From: Tachypleus tridentatus
Taxonomy: Eukaryota; Arthropoda; Merostomata; Xiphosura; Limulidae
Assembly (NCBI RefSeq): GCF_004210375.1
Contig: NW_027467782.1
Coordinates: 24,903,276 to 24,967,275 of the forward strand
DNA length: 64,000 nucleotides
Direction of reading: 5' to 3'
Shown here: positions 11,325 to 64,000 of the stretch, one piece after another
Numbering within the stretch: position 1 is the stretch's first letter
How the letters are laid out: every line of letters begins with the position of its first letter
Notes under the pieces: model-generated
Databases searched by the model: none
The model's input: the letters and a program-made list of their open reading frames with translations, nothing else
What the model was told of the DNA's origin: nothing
Translations under genes and position numbers: made by a program

Positions 11325-12375
11325 ACATCATACATTACTATCTTGTCATCAGTTCTGTACTTTTTACTATCTTATCATCAGTTCTGTACTTTTTACTATT
11401 ATCATACATTACTATCTTGTCATCAGTTCTGTACTTTTACTATTATCATACATTACTATCTTGTCATCAGTTCTGTACTTTTTACTATCATCATACATTA
11501 CTATCTTGTCATCAGTTCTGTACTTTTTACTATCATCATACATTACTAACTTATCATCAGTTCTGTACTTTTTACTATCATCATACATTACTATCTTGTC
11601 ATCAGTTCTGTACTTTTTACTGTCATCATACATTACTATCTTGTCATCAGTTCTGTACTTTTTACTATCATCATACATTACTATCTTGTCATCAGTTCTG
11701 TACTTTTTACTATCATCATACATTACTATCTTGTCATCAGTTCTGTACTTTTTACTATTATCATACATTACTATCTTGTCATCAGTTCTGTACTTTTTAC
11801 TATTATCATACATTACTATCTTGTCATCAGTTCTGTACTTTTTACTATTATCATACATTACTATCTTGTCATCAGTTCTGTACTTTTTACTATTATCATA
11901 CATTACTATCTTATCATCAGTTCTGTACTTTTTACTATCATCATACATTACTATCTTGTCATCAGTTCTGTACTTTTTACTATCATCATACATTACTATC
12001 TTGTCATCAGTTCTGTACTTTTTACTATCATCATACATTACTATCTTATCAGTTCTGTACTTTTTACTATCATCATACATTACTATCTTATCAGTTCTGT
12101 ACTTTTTACTATCATCATACATTTCTATCTTATCATCAGTTCTGTACTTTTTACTATTATCATACATTACTATCTTATCATCAGTTCTGTACTTTTTACT
12201 ATTATCATACATTACTATCTTGTCATCAGTTCTGTACTTTTACTATCATCATACATTACTATCTTGTCATCAGTTCTGTACTTTTTACTATTATCATACA
12301 TTACTATCTTGTCATCAGTTCTGTATTTTTTACTATCATCATACATTACTATCTTGTCATCAGTTCTGTACTTTT
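11325..12375. repeat. Minisatellite, 45-bp unit, about 23 copies
   Basis: A 45-bp unit (tactatcttgtcatcagttc, then tgtactttttactatyatca) repeats head to tail. Because 45 is a multiple of three, several frames stay open on both strands. The minus frame over 11412-12212 repeats the 15-mer MYDDSKKYRTDDKIV. Two copies near 12040-12090 lack exactly 3 bp. First and late copies include 44-bp units that break the frame. No splice-flanked exon or promoter is attached, so the long frames are most simply a product of unit length. Confidence 0.95.
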
Positions 12376-12680
12376 TCTGTACTTACTCAAATTTTTCAAG
12401 TTGTTTCTCACTATTATTTATTTTAAAATATATTAACATCTGGTCATTAGTGCTGTGAAAATTCATATTGTTTGTTTCTCAGTGTGTATTATAGACTGTT
12501 AACTATTAAAATATATATTACTATCTTGAAATTAGTTCTGTGCGTTTATTACAGTAACATTTAAAAAGCTATGTATAAATACAATAAAACTGTTCAGTTC
12601 GTAAAAACTGAAGTACCATAAAATCAAAATATAGTTAAAGTAGCACTAATGTACCTAAAACTTACCAAGGCAGTACCTAC

Positions 12681-33757: not shown

Positions 33758-34912
33758 TACTCTTCAAAAAAAGAAACACAAAAGGCAAAATACGAGACAC
33801 ATTGTCAACAAGTTTATTCCGGGTAGTTCTGTATGACATGTGTGAAACTTTGCACATTAACTGCTGAACATCCAAAGTCTGCAAAGGCAAAGTCCATGCT
33901 CACTAGATGAAGTTTAACGTCACTCAACGTCAATAACAAGTATCCCCGTAAGCATCAATAACTGCTTGACATCTCCTGCCCATGGAAGTAATGAGATGAT
34001 GAATCACATCCTGTGGAATGGCTGTCCACTTAGCCTGCAAAGCTGCTGCAAGCTGAGGTAGAGTCTGCAGTTGAGGTTGTCGCCATTGCAGAAGTCGGTC
34101 CAACTCGTCCCAAAGATGTTCGATGGGGCTTAAATGTGGTGATCTGGAGGGCCAGGGAAGAACATTGATGTTGTGGTGTCTCAAGAAGACAGTGGTGAGT
34201 CGGGCTGTGTGAGGAGGGGCGTTGTCATGTTGAAAAATGTCGTTGACATTCACCATAATGGGTTGCACATGGGGCCTAAGAATCTCATAGACGGTTGCAT
34301 ACGGTCTGATCGAAAATCCTACGCAGCCCTGGTATGGTTGAGGCAGTAAACGTCGCAGTGGTGGTCCTGTCCCGAAGGTGACATAACCTGATGTTGCGAT
34401 CTTGTGCGGGCGTGGTCACATGAGATCTGCCAGATCGTGGACAGTCACAAGTTGATCCATGTTGTTGGTGACGATTCCATAGCCTTGTGATGGTGCTTGG
34501 GTGGACATTCACAGCTCTGGCAACATCTGATCGAGATTCGCCTGCTTCCAAGCGACCAATGGCATTGTTGCGTTGTGCTTCAGTCAGTCTTGGCGTAACT
34601 GTATTGCATGTCGGTCGCTTAACACTGAGCTATGGAAACCGAGAACCTGTCACTTTTATAGGATTTTGCACATGTTGCACTTGCAGAACATGCAGATCCT
34701 CAAACAAATTTATTGGACACACATGCATTTTGGCAAAAAATCCGATGTTTTCCTCCGTTTTCAAAGTGCAAAACTTTTATCGTCATTTTGGTCTGACAAT
34801 CAGTGCCTTAACATGTGTTACATCACATACTCTGAGCTTGTAACGTTATTACATATATTTCTCTTTAAAATAACAAAAATAACCCTTTTGCGTTTCTTTT
34901 TTTTGAAGAGTA
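33758..34912 (-). mobile_element. Tc1-like DNA transposon, internally deleted
   Basis: Terminal inverted repeats match closely: 'tactcttcaaaaaaagaaac' at 33758 and its reverse complement (gtttctttttttttgaagagta, one extra T) ending at 34912, each flanked by TA. The interior carries a broken transposase. It is inserted within the antisense CR1-like LINE, whose C-terminal sequence continues on both sides, so it is younger than that LINE. Confidence 0.9.
33930..34615 (-). pseudogene. Tc1-like transposase, central part missing
   Basis: The N-terminal helix-turn-helix region reads TPRLTEAQRNNAIGRLEAGE then ARAVNVHPSTITRLWNRHQQ. The C-terminal catalytic part reads VNDIFQHDNAPPHTARLTTV (second Asp) and PHLSPIEHLWDELDRLLQ (third acidic residue, Glu). 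The two are joined near 34285 in different frames, and roughly the first catalytic segment is missing compared with the ~340-residue family length. It cannot encode an active enzyme but could be mobilised in trans through its intact ends. Confidence 0.85.
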
Positions 34913-49689: not shown

Positions 49690-50500
49690 AAAAATATTTC
49701 TTGAAAGATTCTAAAACCGGCTAGTATCGCACGACGCACGTTGAATGTTAGCATGCCTATCACCACACAGTGTAACTATGGTTAGTCAAGCTGCTGATGT
49801 AGATATTTTCAGGTCCGAGAGTCTGATCTGGTTTTAACTGTTAAAGACAGCAAAAGAAATATTTAAATAATTAAAATGATAATTATTTCATTTTATCTTC
49901 TTTTCCCAGTTTAGCTCGTGTCCCTTCTTCCTGATTTAAGTTCTCCCTCACTACTGAGCGTTAGCAACACTTGAACTTACATAAAAATAATTCCACAAAT
50001 AATAGGTCATGTAATACAAATAAAAATAGTCTGTGCAAGGAAAAAACAATAGGTAAAATTCGAAAAATATTATGCAGTTTATTAAAAGTAAAATGATCTT
50101 CGAAAAAACAAACGATTTCGAGCTATCTACATAAAACTGGAAAACAGTGAAAGGTAAATAACAAAAAATGAAATTAATATTAAGAAATATAAGTCATAGA
50201 TATAAATTAATTACTGTTATCGTATTTATATTGGAACAGTTTCTTGTTCTGAAAAGATTCCTCATTTTATACAAGTATATTGATGTATCTTTTCTTTTTC
50301 ATCAGTCGCTACCAAGTATACAACAGTTTAGTTTATAAGTTGGAACAGTTTGGTACATAAGTAAAAACAGTTTAGTGTATAGGTTAAAACAGTTACAGTT
50401 GCGTAGTGTATAAGCTACAAAAGTTTAGTATATGAGTTCGTTTAGATTCGGTTTATACTTAATGGAGAATGCATTGAAAATAAATGAGACACGTTTTATT
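49690..50500. other. Nothing recognised
   Basis: AT-rich; a loose repetition of 'aacagtttagt...taagt' occurs at 50320-50440. No coding signal. Confidence 0.35.
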
Positions 50501-50502
50501 CT

Positions 50503-50775
50503 ACCATCGATAGGGCGTTAAGGCGTGCGCTTCGTAATCTGAGGGTCGCGGGTTCGCGCCCGAGTTTCGCCAAAACATGCTCGCCCTCCCAGCCGTGTAG
50601 GCGTTATAATGTGACGATCAATCCCACTATTCGTTGGTAAGAGTAGCCTAAGAGTTGGCGGTGGGTGGTGATGACTAGCTGCCTTCCCTCTAGTCTTACA
50701 CTGCTAAATTAGGGACGGCTAGCACAGATAGCCCTCGAGTTGCTTTGTGCGAAATTCCAAAAAACAAACAAACAA
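50503..50775 (+). mobile_element. tRNA-derived SINE
   Basis: Head with a short deletion (cgatagggcgttaaggcgtg), gggttcgcgcccgag, body, tail ccaaaaaacaaacaaacaag. Confidence 0.9.
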
Positions 50776-51732
50776 GCGTTTCGTGTGTCTGTTGGATTTG
50801 TTTTATTGGTTTAAATTTGTTTGTGTCTGACAGAATGTTCTTCATTTTTTGGATGTATTCATTTGTGTTCATTATGATTATAGCGTTTTCTTTATCTGCT
50901 TTTAAAATTTTTATATTTTTGCCTTGTTTTAGGTTTTAATGGAATTAATGTCTCTTTTTGTAGGATTGTTTAACTTTCTGTTTTGTGAAATTATGTAGAT
51001 GGTTTTGTGAGAAAATTCTTTGAAAAAATCGTTTAAGATGTTGTTTTTAGATGTTTCTGGAAAATATAAATTTTTTCTGGGAAGTTTGGCTGTTGGATGT
51101 CAGTAAAATTGTCGAAGTTGTCTTCTTTCTGCTGGTTGTTTTCTGTGGAAAGTATCACAAGTCTCCTGGCTAGGTCTTCTAAACATGTTTTAATTTCTAA
51201 CATTGGAATGTACCTAAAACATAGTGGAGTTTTAGACAAGTAAAAAAAAATAGCGTATTTAAAAATGTAAAATATGCCATATATCTGAAGTCTTATTTTA
51301 CAATACAGTAAAACTACATTTACCAAAATCATAGTGTGTTGTTTTCAATCATAAGACACTTTTAAAGTGACTCTAAAAGCGAAAACTATAAATCTAGTGT
51401 TATAATATAAAAAGATCAATGTTGACACTTCGTCTTGTGGTTATGGCATCACTTCTAGCAGCTCGCCCTCTGACATTAGTGACATGATCATATTATGCTG
51501 CTGATGACATCCTCGTTTTTGGAAGAAACATGGGTTTTCATATTAAGTATTTGAAAAAAAATTGATATTAAATTTGGTTATTACTCCAACTTGTATATTA
51601 ATTAATTTAATTTTGCATATCACATACATATCCATCACCTAATTAATTTATTAATATTTAATTAAAGTATTAGTTAGATATTAATTAAGAATTTGCACTT
51701 CACCATATATTAATCACATTATTAATTAATCT
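50776..51732. other. Unresolved; open minus-strand frame at 51033-51220
   Basis: On the minus strand, after an acceptor-like cactatgttttag, the sequence reads YIPMLEIKTCLEDLARRLVI then LSTENNQQKEDNFDNF to a stop at 51033. The protein-like composition suggests either a host terminal exon or retroelement sequence. I cannot decide. Short inverted and AT-rich tracts (attaattaa words) occur at 51590-51740. Confidence 0.3.
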
Positions 51733-52568
51733 TTAATTAATAAATCTCCCCCAGTAACACCTCAACCACCCTTCCTCCTGGTATGTCCTTTGACAGATAG
51801 TGCATGGCCAGCAAGATCTGCTCACATCTCTGATTCCTGGGCAATGAACATAACTAGTGGATCTATCTGCTATTTTCTTTGCTCTTAGGTGTCCTTGCAC
51901 AGTCAACTCGTGAATTTGTTCCATCAGTTGAGTCCTGTATTCTGTTGTTTTGATTTGCTGCACTTCCCCAGTATAATTTCTCTGTTTGATTTGGTACAGC
52001 AATTCCTTCTAATACTCTGCTCTATAAGTGCTTTACCCATTTGTCTTCAGCTCGATTTTTTCCCATATTTTGTCACAAAGATTGTGCAGTGAAAAGTGTT
52101 TCTTTTACGCTTCCTTCAATTCCTGCAAACCTATATTCGTGATATCACCTTTTGACCTTTGTAAGATCTTCGTGTTATGTTTGCTCTTATTTTCTTGAGT
52201 TCTATTGGTGACTGCCAGTGCTTCTTCCTATATATATATATATATGTTTTTCATACATATAGTCTTTGATAGGTCTGATATTGCACTCCCTTTTCTTTCT
52301 CTATTCTGTTGGTACCATCTCCTTTGTACCAATTTTCTCCCAGGTATTGTCCCAAAGTTTCTGCAATGGAGGGACTTTCATTTATGATTCCTTCAGTTCC
52401 TACATACCTACATTCGGGATGTCCCCTTTTTGACACTTGTAAGGTCTTGGTGTCTTGCTTGCTCTTCTTTTCTTGACCACTAGTGGTGACCACCAATGGT
52501 TCATCAATCTTCTTTCGGTCTAGTATCTGAGTTTCTACTAGCTGGTATGTTTTAAACAATTTGGTCAA
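51733..52568 (-). mobile_element. Gypsy-like LTR-element pol remnant (integrase zinc-binding domain)
   Basis: The minus strand reads LMEQIHELTVQGHLRAKKIA and CWPCTICQRTYQEEG. With the preceding H...H spacing this is the HHCC zinc-binding region of a Ty3/Gypsy-type integrase (one His appears as Cys in YVHCPG). Upstream, 52568-52251 is another open minus frame (SKRGHPECRYVGTEG). Segments 52085-52190 and 52345-52500 are diverged direct repeats of each other. No LTRs or RT seen. Confidence 0.6.
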
Positions 52569-52645
52569 ATGTGGATGTTTTATACTGTTGTCTCCAGGTC
52601 TCCCACATAATATAATGCATTTATCTTTATTTTCTTATGGGTGAT

Positions 52646-52786
52646 GGCTTTCAGCCGTGGAGCCGTTATAATACGACGGTCAATCCCACTATTCGTTAGT
52701 AAAAAGAGTAGCCCAAGAGTTGGCGGTGGGTGGTGATGACTAGCTGCCTTCCCTCTCGTCTTACACCACTAAATTAGGGACGGTTT
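52646..52786 (+). mobile_element. tRNA-derived SINE, body only
   Basis: From gctttcagccgtggagccgt to aattagggacggtt; both ends missing. Confidence 0.85.
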
Positions 52787-53204: not shown

Positions 53205-53522
53205 CTAGTCCTCTGAACCTTCTGACTCTGATGATTTCCTTTCATGAAACAAATCTCGCAGTTCTTTAAAGTAAAGAGGTCTCTTTGATTTATATTTCGT
53301 AAATTTGTTGTGACGTCTACAATGTGAAGGTACCTTCTTCCTTTCAGTTAACAGAGTTTCCGATATATATGAGAATATTGGTTGATAATAATGAGGCTGT
53401 GTTGATATAAAATATTTGGCATGTGATCCTTCAAGACTCGTGATAATGTTTGTTATTTTACTTGAGGCATTACTATTTTGAATGTCCTTCCTATTGCTAA
53501 AAACATTCGCCTTTGTTTCTTT
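53205..53522 (-). CDS. Gene B exon 6: C-terminal tail
   Basis: 318 nt with acceptor ttgttatttttag, phase 0, ending at TAG (53207-53205). It reads KETKANVFSNRKDIQNSNAS, a Tyr-rich stretch (SHAKYFISTQPHYYQP), a basic segment (CRRHNKFTKYKSKRPLYFKE) and an acidic-serine end, SSESEGSED. The frame is open for 105 codons with no internal stop. After the TAG two more stops occur in frame, then 62 further open codons to about 52998. Confidence 0.75.
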   Translation of the reverse strand, partial: KETKANVFSNRKDIQNSNASSKITNIITSLEGSHAKYFISTQPHYYQPIFSYISETLLTERKKVPSHCRRHNKFTKYKSKRPLYFKELRDLFHERKSSESEGSED

Positions 53523-56500
53523 CTAAAAATAACAAGAATCAGGATAGGTTGATGTTAGTTATCATTATATAGAAATTACATCTTGGAAATTAATACAATG
53601 AAACTACCGATAACTGGGCTATATAAATTTAGTGGATATCAATTAAAATATGTTTTCGAACAACACTTTTATTGAAATATCCAAATTTTGAACAAACTGA
53701 TTGACTCTCTATATTGATTTCTAACAAGTGAAAAGGGAAGGTAATGTTTATCTTATGCATATCGAAATATTTAAAACTTTACTTCGGGGAAAAACTCTGC
53801 AGAAAGTATATGTCTGCAGTACTAAACAGAACAAAATGTAAACAATTACTAACAAGCGTTATTAGAAATTTGAGAATTTCAAAAATAATCAAACTAAAAA
53901 GAAATTGAAATAAAAAAACGTTGGTACTAACAACTATACTTTTGAGAATGATAAATTGCATGATGTATATTTTAATTTAGTTGCTGCAATTATCGAGAAT
54001 TTCACTCTACGTTGTTTTTGTTGGTTTTTTATCAGAAAACTTCAAAACGGACTATCTGTGTCTGCTCACCAAACAATTTTTTCACTTAAAACTAAAACCA
54101 AACACCTTTATACACTTTAACACCAGACTTTTAGAGTTATAAGTCTTCGTTCGTATTACTGGGCTCCACCAGATGTCCTTAATCTATGGGTGCCTTTGTA
54201 TTTAAAATTCGAATATTTTAATATTTGTTTGGAAGCAGTTTAACGTCGAGATGGCGCTGTGAAATTCATCAATATCGATTTGAACGAAAGCGCAAAAAGA
54301 ATACGAACACGACAATTCTGTTCCGATCTAAATCACAAAACTGATTCTAAACAATTCTGGACACACTTGAAAAGATTTACAAATACAGGAACAACAAACA
54401 CAGTATATCCACCACTTGAACTGGATGGAGAAACAGCATACACTAATACAGAAAAAGCCGAGATATTTTAAAAAACACCTAGAAAACACGTTCAAGACAC
54501 ATCATGAACCAGACATGAACAGATACTTCTTTAATACAGTTAACAGCTTTATTGATCACAACAGAAGCATTTTTACACCTAAATTTCCAGTCAACACTAT
54601 TATACACCCAGAAAAAACAAAATACTGGAGCACTCATCAACTGATTAAACATATCACTGTAACAGAAGTCGTAACTGCTATTAACAACACAAAAAACAAA
54701 GCCCCTGGTGAAGATGGTATTCAAGCTATCCTCCTAAAACACGGCACTCAGAGATTATATGAACTCCTAACAGCTTTATTTAATCTATCACTATCAGCAG
54801 GACATATCCCCGTTTCTTGGAAGGAACCAATAATTTTAATGTTCCAGAAAGAAAGAAAGCCAGCGAATAAACCAAACAACTACCGCCCGATTAGCTTAAC
54901 AAGTTGTATTGGCAAAGTGTTAGAGAGGATAATTAGTAATCGTCTGTCAGTTTACTTAGAAGAAAATTCAAAATTACCAGAAATTGAAAACGGATTTTGA
55001 AAGTACCGCCAAACTATAGATCACCTGATTCGACTTACAGAATCAATTACCGACAGCTTCAACAAAAAAGAATGCACTGTAGCTTGCTTTCTCGACATTG
55101 AGAAAGCTTTTGACACAGTGTGGCATAATGGTTTACGTCATAGATTACATGAAATGGCATTACCCCAGGAAACTATTCGCTGGCTGTCCAACTTCCTGGA
55201 AAACAGAATGTGCAAAGTAAATGTGAATGGGGCCCACTCAGGGTCCTTTTCACCCGAAGCAGGAGTCCCGCAGGGAGGGGTTGTTAGCCCAATATTATTT
55301 ATCATGTATGTGAGTAATATGCCTCTGTCGGACCTAAATTTAGGTTTTGCATCTCAGTTCGCTGACGATGTGGCAGTCTGGAAAAGTGCCCCACTCTGTC
55401 AATAGCAGCAACGAACCTACAACCAATTATAAATAACATCGAAGAATACTGCCAGAAATACAGAATCAAAATCAATATTCCGAAAACCCAAGTGATACTA
55501 TTCAGCAGACTGAACAAGCTGAAGAAAGATCCACCAAAGCTCTACATGAATGGATCACTTTTACTGACTGCCACATCTGCTAAATTTCTATATCTAACAT
55601 ACGACTCAAAATTAACGTGGTTACCGCACACTAAAAATATAATGAAACGAATCTGGAAAAGAGCAAACTATGCAAGAAGTCTTTTAGGTAAAAAACCAAG
55701 GAACATCTCCAGGTAATATACTCAAAATCTACAAAACGTACATTAGACCCGTAATAGAATATGCATCACTGGATTAACATAGCACCCACACATTTACAGA
55801 ATCTTCAACGAATACAAAATTCAGTTCTAACTTCGGCATATAAAGTACCACGAAGCACTTCATCCACATTTATGCACAAATATGCAAACATAGACACAAT
55901 ATCTGAAAGACTCTTGCATAATTCTCTAAAATATTTCAATAAGAATTGGCATAAGAATAACTTAATGTGTGATCTCGACAGATACCACTACATGATGTAA
56001 ATAGCCCTAAATACCTCTCCCCTTTTAACATGTATTTAAGAAATGTTACTCAAGCTGGCCACCTTGCACTAGACAATTAAATTTTTTTAAGCTATTTATT
56101 TATTATTTTTATTTTATTTTATTTTTATTACTATTATTGTTACTACAAGTAGTAGTAGCATTTCTCTATGGAGAAAAACAACAAGAAGAAAAATTACAAA
56201 AAAAAAACTTTTCTTGTGCGTCCATGCATGGACTGTGCCCTGAAATGGGCCTGAGTACGATATTATACTTTTTCTCAGGTCCTAAGCTTAAAAAAAAAAA
56301 TCCTTACGTCAGACGCTATCAATGTTCGGGAGGGAGGAAGAGGTCTGATGTACCTGACCCTCCTGGGTATTTAACATCGATACCCTAATACCCACACGGT
56401 GAAACTCAAACACGACAATAACGATGCTTCATAAAAAGTAAAATAAAATACATTTTTAACTCTATGTGGTGCGTAAATGAGTCCAGTGTTTTTAATTAGA

Positions 56501-59500
56501 AAGTTTCTAGCTAGCATAAATGTAAACTTGTTCGATAATTTCTGCTGTTTAAAATCTTGGCATGACGAAAGGGGTGTTTGAACATCAGATAAGACACATC
56601 AAAGTTCTACAGTTATCCAAGCAAAGAAGATTTGGCTAATGCCGGTTTGTTAAACAGCAAAAGAAAATAAGCAAATATACATGTCCCGGCATGGCCAGGT
56701 GGTTAAGGCGCTCGGCTCGTAATCCGAAGGTCGTGAGCTCGAATCCCTGTCACACAAGAGTTGGCGGTGGGTGGTGATGACTAGCTGCCTTCTCTCTTGT
56801 CTTACACTACTAAATTAGCAGTCGTAGTATATGAAGGATGGAAGTCCTCACATTATACATCATACGTATATATGTCTCTCTACTACTAAATGGAATGAGT
56901 GAGAGCCAACTTTACGAGGTAATGACTCATAAACAGAGTCATGCAGTACAAATCTATAGAATAAACATTTATTAAAGGTTTGGAGACGGCTTAAATGGTA
57001 ATGAAGAAAATATTATTATATACAAGTACTAGTCCCCTGGACGGAATTTACGTAAATTCATAATTAATGAAAAGTTATCTAACGACATGAAGAATTGTCT
57101 CCCTTATATGTGACCAGATCAATGAAAACCATGAGATAAAATACTGATAAAACGCCTTCCTTTCCCGTAGCGGGCTTAGAACCATAATTTGAAACAGCTT
57201 CTATCCAAGTGGAACGGTTTTAAAATGGTCATATTAGAAGCATCTTTCATATACTTTCCCAAATGTTAATACAGTAGAAAATATGTAATTTTTACAATTT
57301 TGTTGTTCATACATTTCACTTTATACTTTGAGTACATAGATTAACAAGAATATCAGGTTATACTTTTGTTGCTAAGCGACATGGCATAAAGTTGTTGTTG
57401 TATACCTATAACAAGTCAAGATTCATCCGTAACTGTGTCAATAACTGTGAAAACACATGACTCATAAACAGAGTCAATAGAGTACAACAATTTCGAAAAT
57501 GTTTTGAGATGGCTGCAATGATAAAGAAGAAACCTGTATTATATGTATATATCTACACACAACGTCTCTAGAAGCTGTTATCAAGTATCCATTTAAACCG
57601 ACTACAATTTCCTTCTAAAAAATCGATACCATTAAATTGAAACGTTTCTTATAAGGTGGAAGATTAGAGTGTAAAGTTTATAGCCTTAATACATTATATT
57701 TATAACGGTGTCTAAACTTCATGCAGAACACCAGCATAAAAATGTATAGAAAGTAAGTAAACATATGTGACTGAAGGTATATTACATTCTTGTTATGTTC
57801 GTCTATTTGTGCTCTACCCACCACAGCTATCGATAGCCGGTTTCTAACATTGTAAGTCCCAGACACTCGGTATGAAATGTAATGACATTTCCCGTTATCA
57901 CAATACTTACTTTAGGAAGAGGAAAATTCTGGACTTTTTTGGCCCTCTTCTCTTTTACACTTTTACATTCTCTCTTCTTGTCTCTATTAACAGACTGGTC
58001 TTCATCTTTTTGTGGTACAAGTGAATATTTAATTTTTTTTTCTATCATCTTTATTTGTATGGTCTTCTGTGTTAGCTGATTTTACTGTTTTACATCTACA
58101 ACACTTCCAAATAATGACACTACAAAAGAAAAGCGCTAATAAATAACATGGATGATTTAATTTGACTCTTATTTGTACATCAGTGTTATGTCAATTAAAA
58201 ATTGAATATAATTATAATCTAGAAATAATAATATTTAACAATGACAGCCACAGGGACGTTCTCTCCCAGTGGAACGTCAGTACGTATATGAACATATAAC
58301 ACTAAAATAGGCGGGTTCAGTTCCCCACGGTGGATATGGCAAGTTGACCCCTGCTGCATCTCTTTAAAATAAAGTCAATAAATGTAAACAGGAATAAAAT
58401 GTTACAGCTTAAGAGGGATAATTGAATAATTATTATACTCGCTGATAAAATTCAATTTTAAGACCATATTGAAATAAACTGAAAATCATTAATTAGTTAA
58501 AGAACTTTTTTGAATGAAAATGCCTTTTATATTTATCTCAAGTACTCGAATTGTAATAATTTAGGTTACCCATATTTTACACGTTTCAATTTCAAGTATT
58601 TCTACTGACACGCACAGTACCTTATTGTATTTGCATATAAAAACAGGTTGAAGAATAACATACTTACAAGGAATGTTTTTCATCAGAAGAACTTGTAATA
58701 TTGTAAAAAGTGATCCACAATTTAAGCTTTAAGTGAATCTCCACACTTAAAATACACTTTATTGTAAACTAATGATGCTAATTTCCCCTTATATATATAT
58801 TTCTTTTTAATGCAAGCGTTTGTAACCTTTTGATTATTTATCATTCTAATTAAAATAAAGTAACTAATATTTTTATATTTCTCAGTTCCTTTAAATTCAT
58901 TATTAAGTATATACATACATGGTTCAACTATTAATAACATAGAAATTATATTAAGATCTATTCAATAAAACATAAAAAAACTGTTTTGTTCTTACCTTAA
59001 AAAAATTAACAAAAGTGGTATTCCTACTGCAGCAGTTACCAATGGAATCGTATGTTTTAACATGGATGGTGCTGAAATGGAAAAATACAAGTTAAAAAGA
59101 AAGTTAGTCAAGTGCAATTTGTTTTTGTTATATGATAGTATTGGAGGAGGCTACGTTTCATTTGGTATACTTACAGTGAAAATAACAAGATAACCACAGC
59201 GTTCTGAGTTACTGGAATCGAAGAAGTTCCATTCTTTATTCAAACACGTATAAGTTTAATGCACATGGATAAAACAGTACAGGTAAAGAAGTGTGAAGTA
59301 TCACTTTAGATTTACTTTCTTCCTTGATAATCCAAGTAAAGGTATTTACTTATCATATCTTATGACAACCAAATACACTGACTGTGTTTTCATATCAAAT
59401 CAGGATGATCATTTGATGCGTCACGTGACTGACCACCATTACATCAGATATATATATTTGTAACAAGACAAAAGGCAAAAGTAACGAGTTTTCAGACTTT

Positions 59501-62500
59501 CAAGAATGTATGATTGTCGACACTGACTTACTAGCAATTTGTAAACTGAATACTGTTTATATGTTTCACTATTCAAAGAAATCTGTAATTAGTGTATAAA
59601 TGAACTACAAACGAAAGAGAATATATTAGAAAACTGTCGGTAACAATTCAAAGGTAAAGTACATGGACGGTCTTTTTTGTTGTAAACAAATCTAAAACTC
59701 TGCTCTACTCAACCAGTTTTTATAAAATAGTCAAGATTTAAATAATACAACAACACTAGGAGGAGAAAAATACTTATGACATACAATTACTGGTCCAAAA
59801 AACTTACTTCAGACAACAGAAAAGCTCAAACTGTGAACAGTGAATTAGTGGGAATGATAGACGTGGTTTGGTGAATCATGTTTTACCTAAGTTACTATGA
59901 GTGGTGAAATGGTAAGAGATTTATTATTTAGAATAGAAAATAATGTCCACAATGTACTGGAATATTATAAGAGATCGGGTCTTCACACATTACTACATTT
60001 TTTACCTTCATGAATAAGGGATTGAAGAAATTTAATGGGAAGAAAGAACAACACGCGTCAACACAAACATCGTCACAGTAATATTTTTACATCACGACAT
60101 TTTGTCACCAACCTTTCCACACATATTGTCTCACGTTAAAGGTACGTTTTACGTAATCTTATATGTAGCATAACTTACTTTTCCTTGGAGAAGGAACGTA
60201 TGTTTCTTCCACCGTTCCTGGTTGACTTGGATCTAAGAAAAAAGCTTGAAATGTTTACAATGTTAACTTTGACAATTAAAAATAAAATAATGGATGAAGT
60301 ATATAATAACTAATTTACTGCTTAGTTTGTTCAAAACAGTTTTTCCTTTTTCGATTTATTTAAAAATTATAATTCACAAATACTGATCACATATATAAAC
60401 GCTTTGAAGGAAAGCACAACTTACAACACAGGTTATTTCTCAGTATGAGTCCTTCAGGACATTGGTAGTTTTCACTAGGTTGTACGCATGCTAAAATAAA
60501 GTATAAGATGGTTTGTAGTTAGAGTATTGTTGACATAAGAAATAATATTTTGCACTGTTTGTTTGGAATTTAGCACAACATTACATCATGGCCTATCTAT
60601 GCTCTGTCTATCACGGATATCGAAACCCGGTTTCTAGCATTGGAAGCACGCAGACAGTTTGCTGGGTCACTAGAGAAATTTTTCACCTGATATGACACTT
60701 CAGGCTCATAACAAATTATTAACTACTTTTCTTCGTGAAAGCTCACACATTGGAAATCATGTAAGGTATAAACAAAATCTATCAAATATAGTTGATGGCT
60801 TATCTTGCTCTTTATCTATTGTATCGTAAGTCACAGGAGGTTTCAACTCAATGTATTTTCATAATTAATAATAAATAAGGATTTGCAATGCTAAAGTTAA
60901 GGGTTCGATTTCCCCTCGGTTGAAACAGCGGATATCCCTTTGTAGCTTTGCTGTATGAAAAACGCAAATTTTGGTAATTAAAGGCCCGGCATGGCCAGAT
61001 GTATTAAGGCATTCGACTCGTAATCTGAGGGTCGCAGGTTCGAATCCCCATTACACCAAACATGCTCACCCTTTCAGCCGTGGGGGCATTACAACGTGAC
61101 GGTTAATCCCACTATTCGTTGGTAAAAGAGTAGCCCAAGAGTTGGCGGTGGGTGGTGATGACTAGCTGCCTTCCCTCTGGTCTTACACTGCTAACTTAGG
61201 AACGGATAGCCCTCGTGTAGTTTTGCGCGGAATTCAAAAACAAACAAACAATCGTAATTAAAAATATATATAACATGACTGGACGGAAAATAAAGTGAAG
61301 CGTAAGAAATAACATAAACCAAAAAAATTAAAATCATTTAAGAAATCGTGTGTTTTTTTCTGCTTTACGGAATAGCGAGTAAACAACACGCAGTGCTGCA
61401 TTTATTCTAGAAGTTTGTCTTTTTCATTAATATGTGACGTGTTTGATATAAACTTCCAACAAATGCAGATGCCTACCCAGATCAGAATTAAAGATATGCT
61501 CAGTAACAGATATAGTTAATTAAATAAGCTCTTCAAACTTTCTTATTTCAAATGATAAGAATATATTGTTTCATCGCTTGGATGTGAAAAGTGGCTAAAC
61601 AATGTCTCTGAATACCAGAACTTGGTTGTGTGTTTGTAACAAAAGAAACATTTTTCTGCTATAACACTGTAGCACTTTATAATTTCAGTATTTTCACAGA
61701 CGATTAAAGAAATCATTCAACACTTTTGATTTTTTAAACTTATTTGTTCTATGACTTGTAAAGAAAATAACAATACCTTTCTAATTTCTAACATAAGGTA
61801 ATCTCGTTTTCTCACTTCACGGAATGTCTAATTTCATTAATTGTGTAACGCTATTAATTAAATTTATTCATATCTATGTATGCATTTAGTTATTGTATAT
61901 AATAATAATAAATCAAAAATTATTTCGTAATGATAAATTTATATCTGCAGACAAGTTTGATTTTCAACATTTTAACACCTCAGGCTTAACGCGGAAACAA
62001 TGGCGGTGAGCTGTATGTAGTTAGTTGGAAAGGTGATTTCATGGATTTTGGAACATTAATGTACAATCATTAAATATATATCGAACTTATAACACTATAC
62101 GTAAATTGTAGTAAAAATGGATGGAATCCGATTCATAATATAAAGTGTTTTTTTTTTAACTTCTAAACACTACCAAAATCGATTCTTATAAGCATTTACC
62201 TTCTAAGAAATGAGTGATGAAAATTGGCTTGTGTGCTTTTATCTCCCAGTTTCTTGAGTATTCAATAACGCACTTATACACACCAGTATCAGAAAAATCA
62301 AATTTATAAATCATTAAATCACCCGTGGCTTTGTTTACCCGAATTTTATCATTGTCTGTTGCTATTCCACCGTAGGGGCCAAACCAATAATACTGAAAAA
62401 CATCAATGGTATAACTTTTGATCTCATAGCTGTCAGGGACACACGGAATCACCTGTGGGGCGCCAAGTATAATACTTTCAGGTTTAAGCTTTATGTGTCC

Positions 62501-62566
62501 AGGCATTGCGATTGTTACAGCATATAATGCTGTAAAAATCAATGTTTTCAAAAAGAACTTCACCAT
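53205..62566 (-). CDS. Gene B: single-pass membrane protein with one Ig domain (six exons)
   Basis: Whole-gene entry. Exons at 62566-62200, 60490-60425, 60232-60179, 59071-58996, 58119-57911 and 53522-53205 have GT/AG borders and matching phases. The product is about 362 residues. A signal peptide spans 1 to about 20 (MVKFFLKTLIFTALYAVTIA). An Ig domain follows at about 28-118, with Cys42, Trp61 and the DTGVYKC box ending at Cys99. A Cys-rich segment (123-144) has Cys124, Cys133 and Cys144; then a Pro/Glu linker; a transmembrane helix at about 170-193 (TIPLVTAAVGIPLLLIFLSV); then a basic, then Lys/Glu-rich tail ending SESEGSED. It likely acts at the cell surface. Exon 5 carries one extra A (nine at 58033-58041), which breaks the frame; with eight, exon 6 joins in phase 0. 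The Ig exon loosely recalls sperm-egg Ig proteins such as ZPBP (WxGPxG, then DxGxYxC), but this is a guess. Confidence 0.82.
53523..54246. other. Gene B intron 5, left part
   Basis: AT-rich; a fragment of the second SINE-like family (ggactatctgtgtctgctca) near 54045-54090. Nothing else. Confidence 0.4.
54247..56440 (+). mobile_element. Jockey-like LINE, 5'-truncated, in gene B intron 5
   Basis: Antisense to gene B. The plus-strand ORF2 reverse transcriptase is long and only lightly damaged: KNKAPGEDGIQAILLKHGTQ, NYRPISLTSCIGKVLERIIS, CFLDIEKAFDTVWHNGLRHR, GVPQGGVVSPILFIMYVSNM and FADDVAVW (catalytic Asp pair present). Then thumb and C-terminal sequence (TYDSKLTWLPHTKNIMKRIW; LQRIQNSVLTSAYKVPRSTS) runs to a stop at about 56000. 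Frame breaks lie near 54470, 55000, 55405 and 55715. A 3' UTR with A-rich runs extends to about 56440. Fewer lesions than the other LINEs suggest a younger insertion. Confidence 0.9.
56683..56820 (+). mobile_element. tRNA-derived SINE, internally deleted
   Basis: An intact head (cccggcatggccaggtggtt; gagctcgaatccctgtcaca) jumps straight to the distal body (agagttggcggtgggtggtg) and ends at ctactaaattag. Confidence 0.88.
56821..57910. other. Gene B intron 5, right part
   Basis: The words 'actcataaacagagtca' and 'agtacaa...' recur at 56930-56960 and 57460-57490, hinting at a diverged ~530-bp duplication (followed by 'ggagacggct' and 'gagatggctgcaatg'). A second-family SINE piece is at 57800-57872. 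No exon seen. Confidence 0.4.
57911..58119 (-). CDS. Gene B exon 5: end of helix and cytoplasmic tail, frameshifted
   Basis: 209 nt, acceptor cttttcttttgtag, donor CCTAAA|GTAAGT. It reads SVIIWKCCRCKTVKSANTED, then HTNKDDRKK, where a run of nine A leads to a stop two codons later. One A fewer gives YSLVPQKDEDQSVNRDKKRE and ends exactly in phase 0. Membrane-proximal cysteines (WKCCRC) could be palmitoylated (inference). Confidence 0.8.
58996..59071 (-). CDS. Gene B exon 4: transmembrane segment
   Basis: 76 nt, enters in phase 1, exits in phase 2; acceptor tccatttcag, donor TTAAG|GTAAGA. It reads TPSMLKHTIPLVTAAVGIPL then LLIFL, most of the membrane helix. Confidence 0.82.
60179..60232 (-). 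CDS. Gene B exon 3: juxtamembrane linker
   Basis: 54 nt, phase 1-1, acceptor ttttttcttag, donor GGAAAA|GTAAGT. It reads YPSQPGTVEETYVPSPRK, an extended Pro-rich linker. Confidence 0.78.
60425..60490 (-). CDS. Gene B exon 2: Cys-rich segment
   Basis: 66 nt, phase 1-1, acceptor tttattttag, donor TGTGTT|GTAAGT. It reads ACVQPSENYQCPEGLILRNN then LC. The three cysteines suggest a small disulphide-stabilised stalk. Confidence 0.8.
60557..60675 (-). mobile_element. Second SINE-like family copy
   Basis: Plus strand 'gtttgtttggaatttagcac', 'tctatcacggatatcgaaac', 'tgctgggtcactag'; homologous to 45035-45170. Confidence 0.6.
60885..60965 (+). mobile_element. Third SINE-like family copy
   Basis: Contains 'gctaaagttaagggttcgat', 'ttcccctcggt' and 'gtagctttgctgtatgaaaa'; homologous to 48422-48501. 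Confidence 0.65.
60983..61253 (+). mobile_element. tRNA-derived SINE, full length, in gene B intron 1
   Basis: Head ggcccggcatggccagatgt, box B caggttcgaatcccc, complete body and tail caaaaacaaacaaacaatc. A perfect 9-bp target-site duplication, gtaattaaa, lies at 60974-60982 and 61254-61262. Confidence 0.95.
61263..62199. other. Gene B intron 1, nothing else recognised
   Basis: AT-rich without coding or repeat signal beyond short A/T words. Confidence 0.4.
62200..62566 (-). CDS. Gene B exon 1: signal peptide and Ig domain
   Basis: 367 nt; ATG at 62566, donor AGAAG|GTAAAT at 62200/62199, exit phase 1 as is usual for Ig exons. It encodes residues 1-122. The start is chosen because it begins a clear signal peptide and the minus strand upstream has stops. 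Confidence 0.88.
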
Positions 62567-64000
62567 CTCTATATCTTAAAGTTTGCTCGCAGTAGTAACT
62601 TGAACGTTTTCCAAAATGTCTCCTAATTATCTGTGTTGCTGAGATACTGTTTCATTGTTAATATTATAAATATTGTAAGTACGTAAAAATCACAAACAAT
62701 ATGTTATAAAAGTTACGGAGTTAGGGATTAAACACTAAAAGCTGATAAAAGTTACGAAGTTACGGATTGAACGCTAAAAACTGACAAAGTACAGAAACTA
62801 AAAGGTGTAAAATTTATAATGAGGCTACAGAAAACACAATTCCATTTTTAAACAGCTTTGATTTGAATTTAAAATATACAAATTCAAAAATGTGTGAAAA
62901 AACATCTAATGTTAACGTTATTTTTATTACAAAATAAGGTATTGTTGTTTCACAATAATACTTGGTAAATAATCACAATTATTGTTGTGAAAACAGTTTA
63001 AACAACTCGCCTGGCAGGTAAATTACATATACGAAATTTAAAAAAGTTTCTATTCTTCCCTTAAGTTTCCCCAATTTGATTTAAAATATTAAAAAATAAA
63101 AGCATCATAAACAAACTGTTTACATTCCGGTTGGAACAGAATTACAAGAAAAAGAAATTTATTTATTTTCTCCCATGAAGTTACCTAGGGGGCTGAATAT
63201 AAAAATCGTAAAGTTAATAACGTCACAGGCCTAATGTCAATGTCTTCTTACAAGTATAATTAGTAGTGATCACACTCTATCAGTTCAGAAAACATCTTCA
63301 CCGTAAGATTCGTTGCTGTGACAAACAACTTATATAAATATTATGTTTGGTCGTCGGCAATGGATAGGGCAAAGTATAGTTGATATAATATTGTACATGT
63401 TTGTTTTTGAAAAATTGGTGAGTGCTCACACGAGGTAGACAGAGCACAGAGAGCCGGTTTTGTAACTGTGACTGGAGGTGCAAGCAACCCTGTTAATGCA
63501 ATTATTCAATGAGAGACTGATCGTTCTGTGAGTCAGCCACTTTCTCTTGAAGTTATTCACCTCATGAACAATCTGAACCTGTTCATTCCGAGAAAGATTT
63601 TTATAGCCTTTTTCCACCACAGGATTTTCTCATGTTTCCCTGTACACCTCCTGCAGAGTGAGCTCGGTCTAATATTGCGTATTCAGGTATGATTTCTCAG
63701 GTATGTGATGTTTTATCCCATTTTATGATTTCCTACAATCCTCATCCTTTTTTTGTTGTATGATAGTTCTTAGTTCTTCTTTACCATATTTAGTTTTTCC
63801 ACTTTCTTTGGATATTAGGGTTCATACAAAGCATTTAACTTCATAATTGGTTGAGAGTTCCAGCATGTCTTGCTTCCTGTGTGCTGTGGATAGTTTGTTT
63901 GACGAACCATCAAGTAGCCTATCCGTTGTAAGACTCACAGGTGTTGGAATCTATTTTGCCAATTTGGGAGTACCCCCTGACTTCCAGTGCTTTTAATCCA
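62567..64000. other. Upstream of gene B, nothing certain
   Basis: It would hold the gene B promoter. A short direct repetition, 'ataaaagttacg(g/a)agtta(g/c)gga' then 'taa(c)gctaaaa', occurs at 62705-62790. The minus frame at 63426-63620 has no recognisable motif. Confidence 0.3.

Follow-up and report, generated by a model that had tools for sequence, protein, structure and literature searches.

The subject of this analysis is a six-exon gene on the minus strand of a 64,000-nucleotide (nt) stretch of the Tachypleus tridentatus genome (assembly GCF_004210375.1, contig NW_027467782.1, positions 24,903,276 to 24,967,275 of the forward strand), hereafter the window. Comparison with other copies shows that it belongs to a large family of such genes in the horseshoe crab. 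We propose, at about even confidence, that the family encodes a surface, probably germ-line, receptor and lies in a unit that has been segmentally duplicated. The predicted family product is a single-pass membrane protein with a signal peptide, one Sp38-type immunoglobulin (Ig) domain, a short Cys-containing stretch, a linker, a membrane helix whose inner edge is rich in Cys, and a tail that is long and basic. The copies are found on 12 contigs and lie in a duplicated unit that is no shorter than 13 kb. According to this proposal, segmental duplication would have dispersed the unit, in part through inverted pairs arranged head to head, and selection would have preserved intact genes in a minority of copies. 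The protein would be a receptor for adhesion or recognition at the cell surface, most likely that of sperm or of other cells of the germ line; its Ig domain would bind a partner outside, and its tail would lie inside.

In Pfam searches, Sp38 (PF07354, the N-terminal Ig domain of zona-pellucida-binding protein, ZPBP) ranked first for exon 1 of the window at 31.6 bits, past the cut-off of 23.1. It was also the top match of three spliced products, the 217-amino-acid (aa) product of the window (30.3 bits) and those of two 259-aa copies (28.5 and 26.3 bits). An earlier description made from the letters alone (the sequence-only reading) had remarked on a faint ZPBP-like pattern in the Ig domain, and the profile match lifts that impression over the Pfam cut-off. 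What the same description missed is that the gene belongs to a dispersed repeat with dozens of closely similar copies. In the genome from which the window comes (2.17 Gb, 205 contigs), exon 1 had at least 150 matches, and at least 81 copies, on 12 contigs with C19 leading, were at 79% identity or more; 16 carried a stop or frame flag. All coordinates given here are positions in the window, L-numbers denote fetched stretches and C-numbers denote contigs of the same genome.

Exon chain and reading frames among the copies

Twenty stretches were fetched from the genome, 19 near copies and one 31%-identical relative, and the window together with the 19 near copies formed the comparison set. Across introns and flanks, the main blocks of the near copies were roughly 89-98% identical to the window, with some pieces lower. 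The six exons of the window (Table 1) have GT/AG borders and intron phases of 1, 1, 1, 2 and 0. When 317 candidate exon-phase combinations were ranked by splice score, exon 4 came at index 12, exon 3 at 132 and exon 2 at 316; because only exon 4 stood out, single-locus splice scores were dropped as proof of the chain and the copy comparison was used instead. Acceptors were AG in 20/20 copies for exons 2-5 and in 17/17 for exon 6, which was found in 17 of the 20 copies and whose frame reaches the same stop in 12 of those 17. Donors were GT in all 20 copies save at exon 4 (13 GT, 7 GC). We judge the chain to be real because 19 further copies share its acceptors at every exon found in them and, for the most part, its exon lengths, the splice scores by themselves being weak. 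The exons, borders and phases given in the sequence-only reading therefore hold as a model of the family, as does the order it gave to the parts of the protein, from signal peptide through Ig, short Cys-containing stretch, linker and membrane helix to tail. The six exons do not, however, form one frame in the window copy.

Exon 5 of the window has nine A at 58033-58041 followed by TAA at 58029-58031, giving, as written, a 217-aa product that lacks most of the tail, and it is this ninth A that breaks the frame. The six exons sum to 1090 nt, which is no multiple of 3, and exon 6 is out of frame with exons 1-5. Eight A would yield 362 aa, so the 362-residue product that had been assigned to this locus would need one A fewer in exon 5. 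The window exon also lacks 6 nt that most copies have. Across the 20 copies the run is of eight A in 11, nine in four, seven in two and five (an interrupted run) in three; in L009, nine A are offset by a changed neighbouring base and the length is kept. All six exons are open in three of the 17 copies with every exon found (364, 366 and 364 aa; L017, L023 and L027 type), and L020 is open through exons 1-5, exon 6 not being found within its fetched stretch. Of the 27 indels between copies, 16 involve one base within a run at least four bases long, and some of the frame breaks may therefore be assembly errors. On this sequence comparison, we take the chain to be the family's gene and the window copy to carry a +1 frameshift or an assembly error.

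Only slightly short of an even chance is the alternative that the window protein truly stops at 217 aa and that the tail frame and exon 6 are unused here. The literal sequence does read TAA after DDRKKN, ATTAAA overlaps this stop and AATAAA lies at 56973, and L012 and L024 are likewise one base longer in that A run. Set against this ending are the constraint on exon 6 across the family, the eight A in 11/20 copies, and the predominance of single-base indels in runs, which is the pattern expected of sequencing errors.

Coding constraint was assessed from the proportions of nonsynonymous (pN) and synonymous (pS) differences between copies. In the true frame, pN/pS was 0.38 for exon 1 (pN<pS in 185/190 pairs) and 0.41 for exon 6 (129/136 pairs), and in the wrong frames of these two exons it was 0.99-1.22. 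No constraint was detected by pN/pS for exon 2 (1.65 on 63 nt). Several points count against our proposal here. The pairs compared are not independent, and 12 intron and flank control segments, read in three frames, gave pN/pS of 0.49-1.53; since the controls fall as low as 0.49 in one of the frames, exons 1 and 6 lie only modestly below neutral. Counting the window, 16/20 copies are not open across the exons found. Finally, exons 1 and 5 diverge between copies more than the introns do, which plain duplication leaves unexplained.

This divergence was seen between subfamilies A and C, which differed by 0.104 and 0.086 in the exon 1 blocks and by 0.073 in exon 5, compared with 0.031-0.071 in exon-free blocks, where the upstream flank and a short interspersed element (SINE) were highest. 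The exon 6 blocks (0.067 and 0.076) were barely over the adjoining intron block (0.065). For exon 1, pS was 0.13 versus an overall difference of 0.028-0.052 in the control segments, although the copies were chosen by exon 1 identity, which may inflate exon 1 divergence. One reading of the pattern is that introns may have been homogenised by gene conversion with the exon lineages kept apart. The bolder view of a genome-wide, amplified set of sperm-type Ig receptors, with exons held apart by selection and introns homogenised, that would serve as a gamete-recognition repertoire or constitute a germ-line conflict family, strikes us as quite improbable.

Spread and borders of the duplicated unit

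Run over the whole genome, the Sp38 profile gave 86 matches past the cut-off, two of them from a distinct gene on C6, and it gave no match in any of 14 control genomes. The Pfam Coagulin profile gave 19 matches in this genome (best 100 bits) and none in the 14 control genomes; coagulogen is not known outside horseshoe crabs, and these genes identify the genome as that of one, in keeping with the chelicerate source implied by the sequence-only reading. Exon 6 had 145 genome matches, 108 of which were taken forward. Exon 1 lies on the same strand within 20 kb of 71 of these (median 6.8 kb), and in 55 of the 71 pairs neither exon has a stop flag. Clusters in the same orientation, spaced by 49-101 kb, were found on C7, C11 and C6, and head-to-head pairs lie 14.8 and 18.5 kb apart.

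Exon 6 also occurs without exon 1 within 20 kb, in 37/108 copies (for example at C8:50525852-50706102), and 33 of these 37 have no stop flag. An alternative first exon for such copies was considered and rejected at L039, where the homology of the 3.85 kb upstream stretch to the window was a SINE only. A 46% identical relative of exon 6 at C1:97519281-97519574 lies within a 209-aa open frame and may belong to a low-copy ancestor.

In the window, the shared unit spans at least 15.5 kb, or 13.4 kb minus an element nested in intron 5 that the sequence-only reading had overlooked. The homology of fetched copies jumps past this element, from 56407 to 54316, and its frames reached 21.6 bits on Pfam RVT_1, under the cut-off of 29.6. 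The C10 copy of the gene stands between inverted arms that are each about 3.1 kb long and 94-96% identical, and the arm frame of this copy (L029) matched Pfam Integrase_H2C2 at 37.8 bits (cut-off 25.5). On C11, an inverted second copy of the exon 2-6 stretch lies upstream of the gene, with no exon 1 detected there.

Inverted arms that carry an integrase-like frame could speak for a mobile element, which again tells against our proposal. The unit would then be a mobile element of DNA, large in size, with inverted arms at its ends and the Ig gene for its cargo; transposition would have spread the copies, and the encoded protein would assist the element, in the germ line for instance. We consider this somewhat unlikely. 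It would fit with the dispersal of copies over at least 12 contigs, with the C10 arms and the integrase-type zinc domain encoded in them, and with the decay of all but three of the 17 full copies. However, no common outer boundary was seen among the window, L030, L035, L036 and L029: the window departs at 51211, L030 at 2655 and L035 at 8878, and L036 and L029 match further out. Beyond Integrase_H2C2, Pfam gave no transposase or polymerase in 8-9 of 17 frames (at least 90 aa; L029, L032 and L033), and some clusters, spaced as given above, are tandem. Of the best 40 hits to the arm, 23 lie downstream of exon 1, one upstream and 16 without exon 1 within 20 kb, which is weak evidence because these hits omit the known upstream arm of C10.

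At the other end, two pieces, 0-0.9 and 2-3 kb along a stretch that begins at the window's right end, also belong to the unit: 37/40 and 31/40 of their listed hits lie upstream of exon 1. A piece outside the arm (50050-51150) had at least 42 matches listed (40 best of 4651 candidates scored), and among those listed only the window's own has any of the 81 exon-1 rows less than 40 kb away; another, 98% identical, is on C8. Positions 50050-52300 of the window are 98-99% identical to C8:158247765-158250013, and none of the exon-1 rows compared lies within 20 kb of the latter. Because the outer ends differ and the outside piece is not near exon-1 copies, we prefer segmental duplication, inverted pairs included, to transposition as the way in which the unit probably spread. 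Some unit borders fall at SINEs. A unit end at 62954 was considered and dropped, as L034 breaks there because some 270 bp ahead of exon 1 are duplicated.

SINE-like repeats lie at 60977-61252, 56685-56818 and 52648-52783; a tRNA-like head was noted by reading, and ARAGORN reported no tRNA. Elsewhere in the window, a 45-bp tandem repeat at 11364-12376 (22.7 copies, 96% matching) has several frames open on both strands, and a transposase frame at 33930-34415 matched Pfam DDE_3 at 33.3 bits (cut-off 28.6). Rfam and tRNA searches of the window returned nothing.

Table 1. Exons of the gene and parts of the surrounding duplicated unit in the window
Feature	Position	Strand	Description
Exon 1	62200..62566	minus	ATG, signal peptide, Sp38-type Ig (about 62443-62255); 367 nt in 20/20 copies
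Exon 2	60425..60490	minus	CVQPSENYQCPEGLILRNNLC, three Cys; 66 nt and AG/GT in 20/20 copies
Exon 3	60179..60232	minus	Linker YPSQPGTVEETYVPSPRK; 54 nt in 18/20 copies
Exon 4	58996..59071	minus	Start of transmembrane helix; best splice sites of the chain; 76 nt in 16/20 copies
Exon 5	57911..58119	minus	End of helix, Cys-rich inner edge KCCRCK, basic tail; 207-216 nt among copies
Exon 6	53205..53522	minus	Basic cytoplasmic tail, 105 codons and TAG; 318 nt in 15/17 copies
Nested element in intron 5	54316..56407	plus	Broken reverse-transcriptase-like frames; missing in many fetched copies
Downstream arm	51211..52641		C10 copy has the arm also inverted, upstream of the gene
Open frame in downstream arm	51736..52008	minus	Counterpart of the L029 frame matching Integrase_H2C2; likeness via L029
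Upstream part of duplicated unit	62567..64000	minus	Continues beyond the window end

Identity of the encoded protein

By reading, exon 2 of the window copy contains three Cys, and three more stand at the inner edge of the membrane; the membrane helix, LVTAAVGIPLLLIFLSVII, has a hydropathy of 2.76. Searches to E 10 with the 217-aa product, with the frame of exon 6 and with both 259-aa copies matched no C-terminal domain; in the 259-aa copies the remaining hits were weak (in one of them, MLANA at E 0.089). No Pfam family was matched by the tail piece or by the frame of exon 6, no NCBIfam model was matched by exons 1 and 6, and tblastn of viral contigs gave no relative. The locus L028 of a 30%-identical subfamily has a downstream stretch resembling the membrane-helix exon (E 0.016).

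The assignment to Sp38 has its own difficulties, which bear on the proposed function. The 30%-identical subfamily scored 19.7 bits on Sp38, under the cut-off, and slightly better on Ig_3. The sequence-only reading had suggested profile searches and structure prediction of the full product; the former gave the Sp38 match, but an AlphaFold model of exon 1 alone was poor, with the Ig domain poorly folded (predicted local distance difference test score, pLDDT, of 37). In a sequence search of the PDB, the nearest solved chains were contactins and other neural Ig receptors. Lastly, the Sp38 family name alone is what would tie the gene to sperm or the germ line, and this is the weakest step of the proposal. 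In the excerpts of the literature consulted on ZPBP/Sp38 in Limulus, in arthropods and in invertebrates, and on the evolution of sperm Ig domains, no such family is named.

The PDB result would fit an Ig receptor of the contactin or Dscam type that serves immunity or neural wiring, not gametes, and has been amplified as other recognition families of arthropods have, an explanation that we regard as unlikely. Robo, NCAM and Dscam are also among the listed rows of the PDB search, and the many close copies with diverging exons would suit a family of this kind. The tested products, however, have one Ig only and no other domain up to E 10, and for this family Pfam puts Sp38 above I-set and V-set.

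Sp38/ZPBP proteins are familiar from vertebrate sperm. An amplified, membrane-anchored Sp38 protein in an externally fertilising chelicerate would, if true, point to the domain as an older tool of animals and make the family a testable multicopy candidate for gamete recognition. What appeared to be a single odd gene belongs to a repeat, which gene-finding programs may mask or split.

Comparison with known systems

ZPBP1 and ZPBP2 share with the horseshoe crab protein an Sp38 Ig domain after the signal peptide, followed by a short Cys stretch. ZPBP proteins are expressed in the acrosome of sperm and have a C-terminal Cys-rich domain and neither a membrane anchor nor a long basic tail. The horseshoe crab protein, in contrast, is multicopy, has no C-terminal domain match and possesses both a membrane helix and a tail that is long and basic; because of the missing domain match and the membrane anchor, it is not a ZPBP by layout. 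The sperm Ig membrane proteins IZUMO1, SPACA6 and TMEM81 share with it a single Ig, one membrane helix and a cytoplasmic tail. In the IZUMO family a helical domain stands ahead of an Izumo-type Ig, whereas by reading the Ig follows directly on the signal peptide here, with no domain before it. For the window protein, the Pfam matches listed to E 10 did not include Izumo-Ig.

Within the same genome, the C6 gene (C6:1458073 and C6:3529478) likewise has an Sp38 Ig (31.2 bits) and a first exon frame that runs into GGTAAG right after the Ig. It differs in being only 23% identical over 111 residues, in passing the I-set and V-set cut-offs, and in having two loci among the Sp38 matches. Contactins and Dscam provide the nearest solved Ig domains by sequence, but these are multi-Ig receptors, unlike the single Ig found here. 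In genomic arrangement, the family resembles the ampliconic testis families in inverted duplications, such as mammalian sex-chromosome amplicons, in its many close copies, some of them head-to-head pairs, and its mix of intact and broken genes, but differs from them in being spread over at least 12 contigs.

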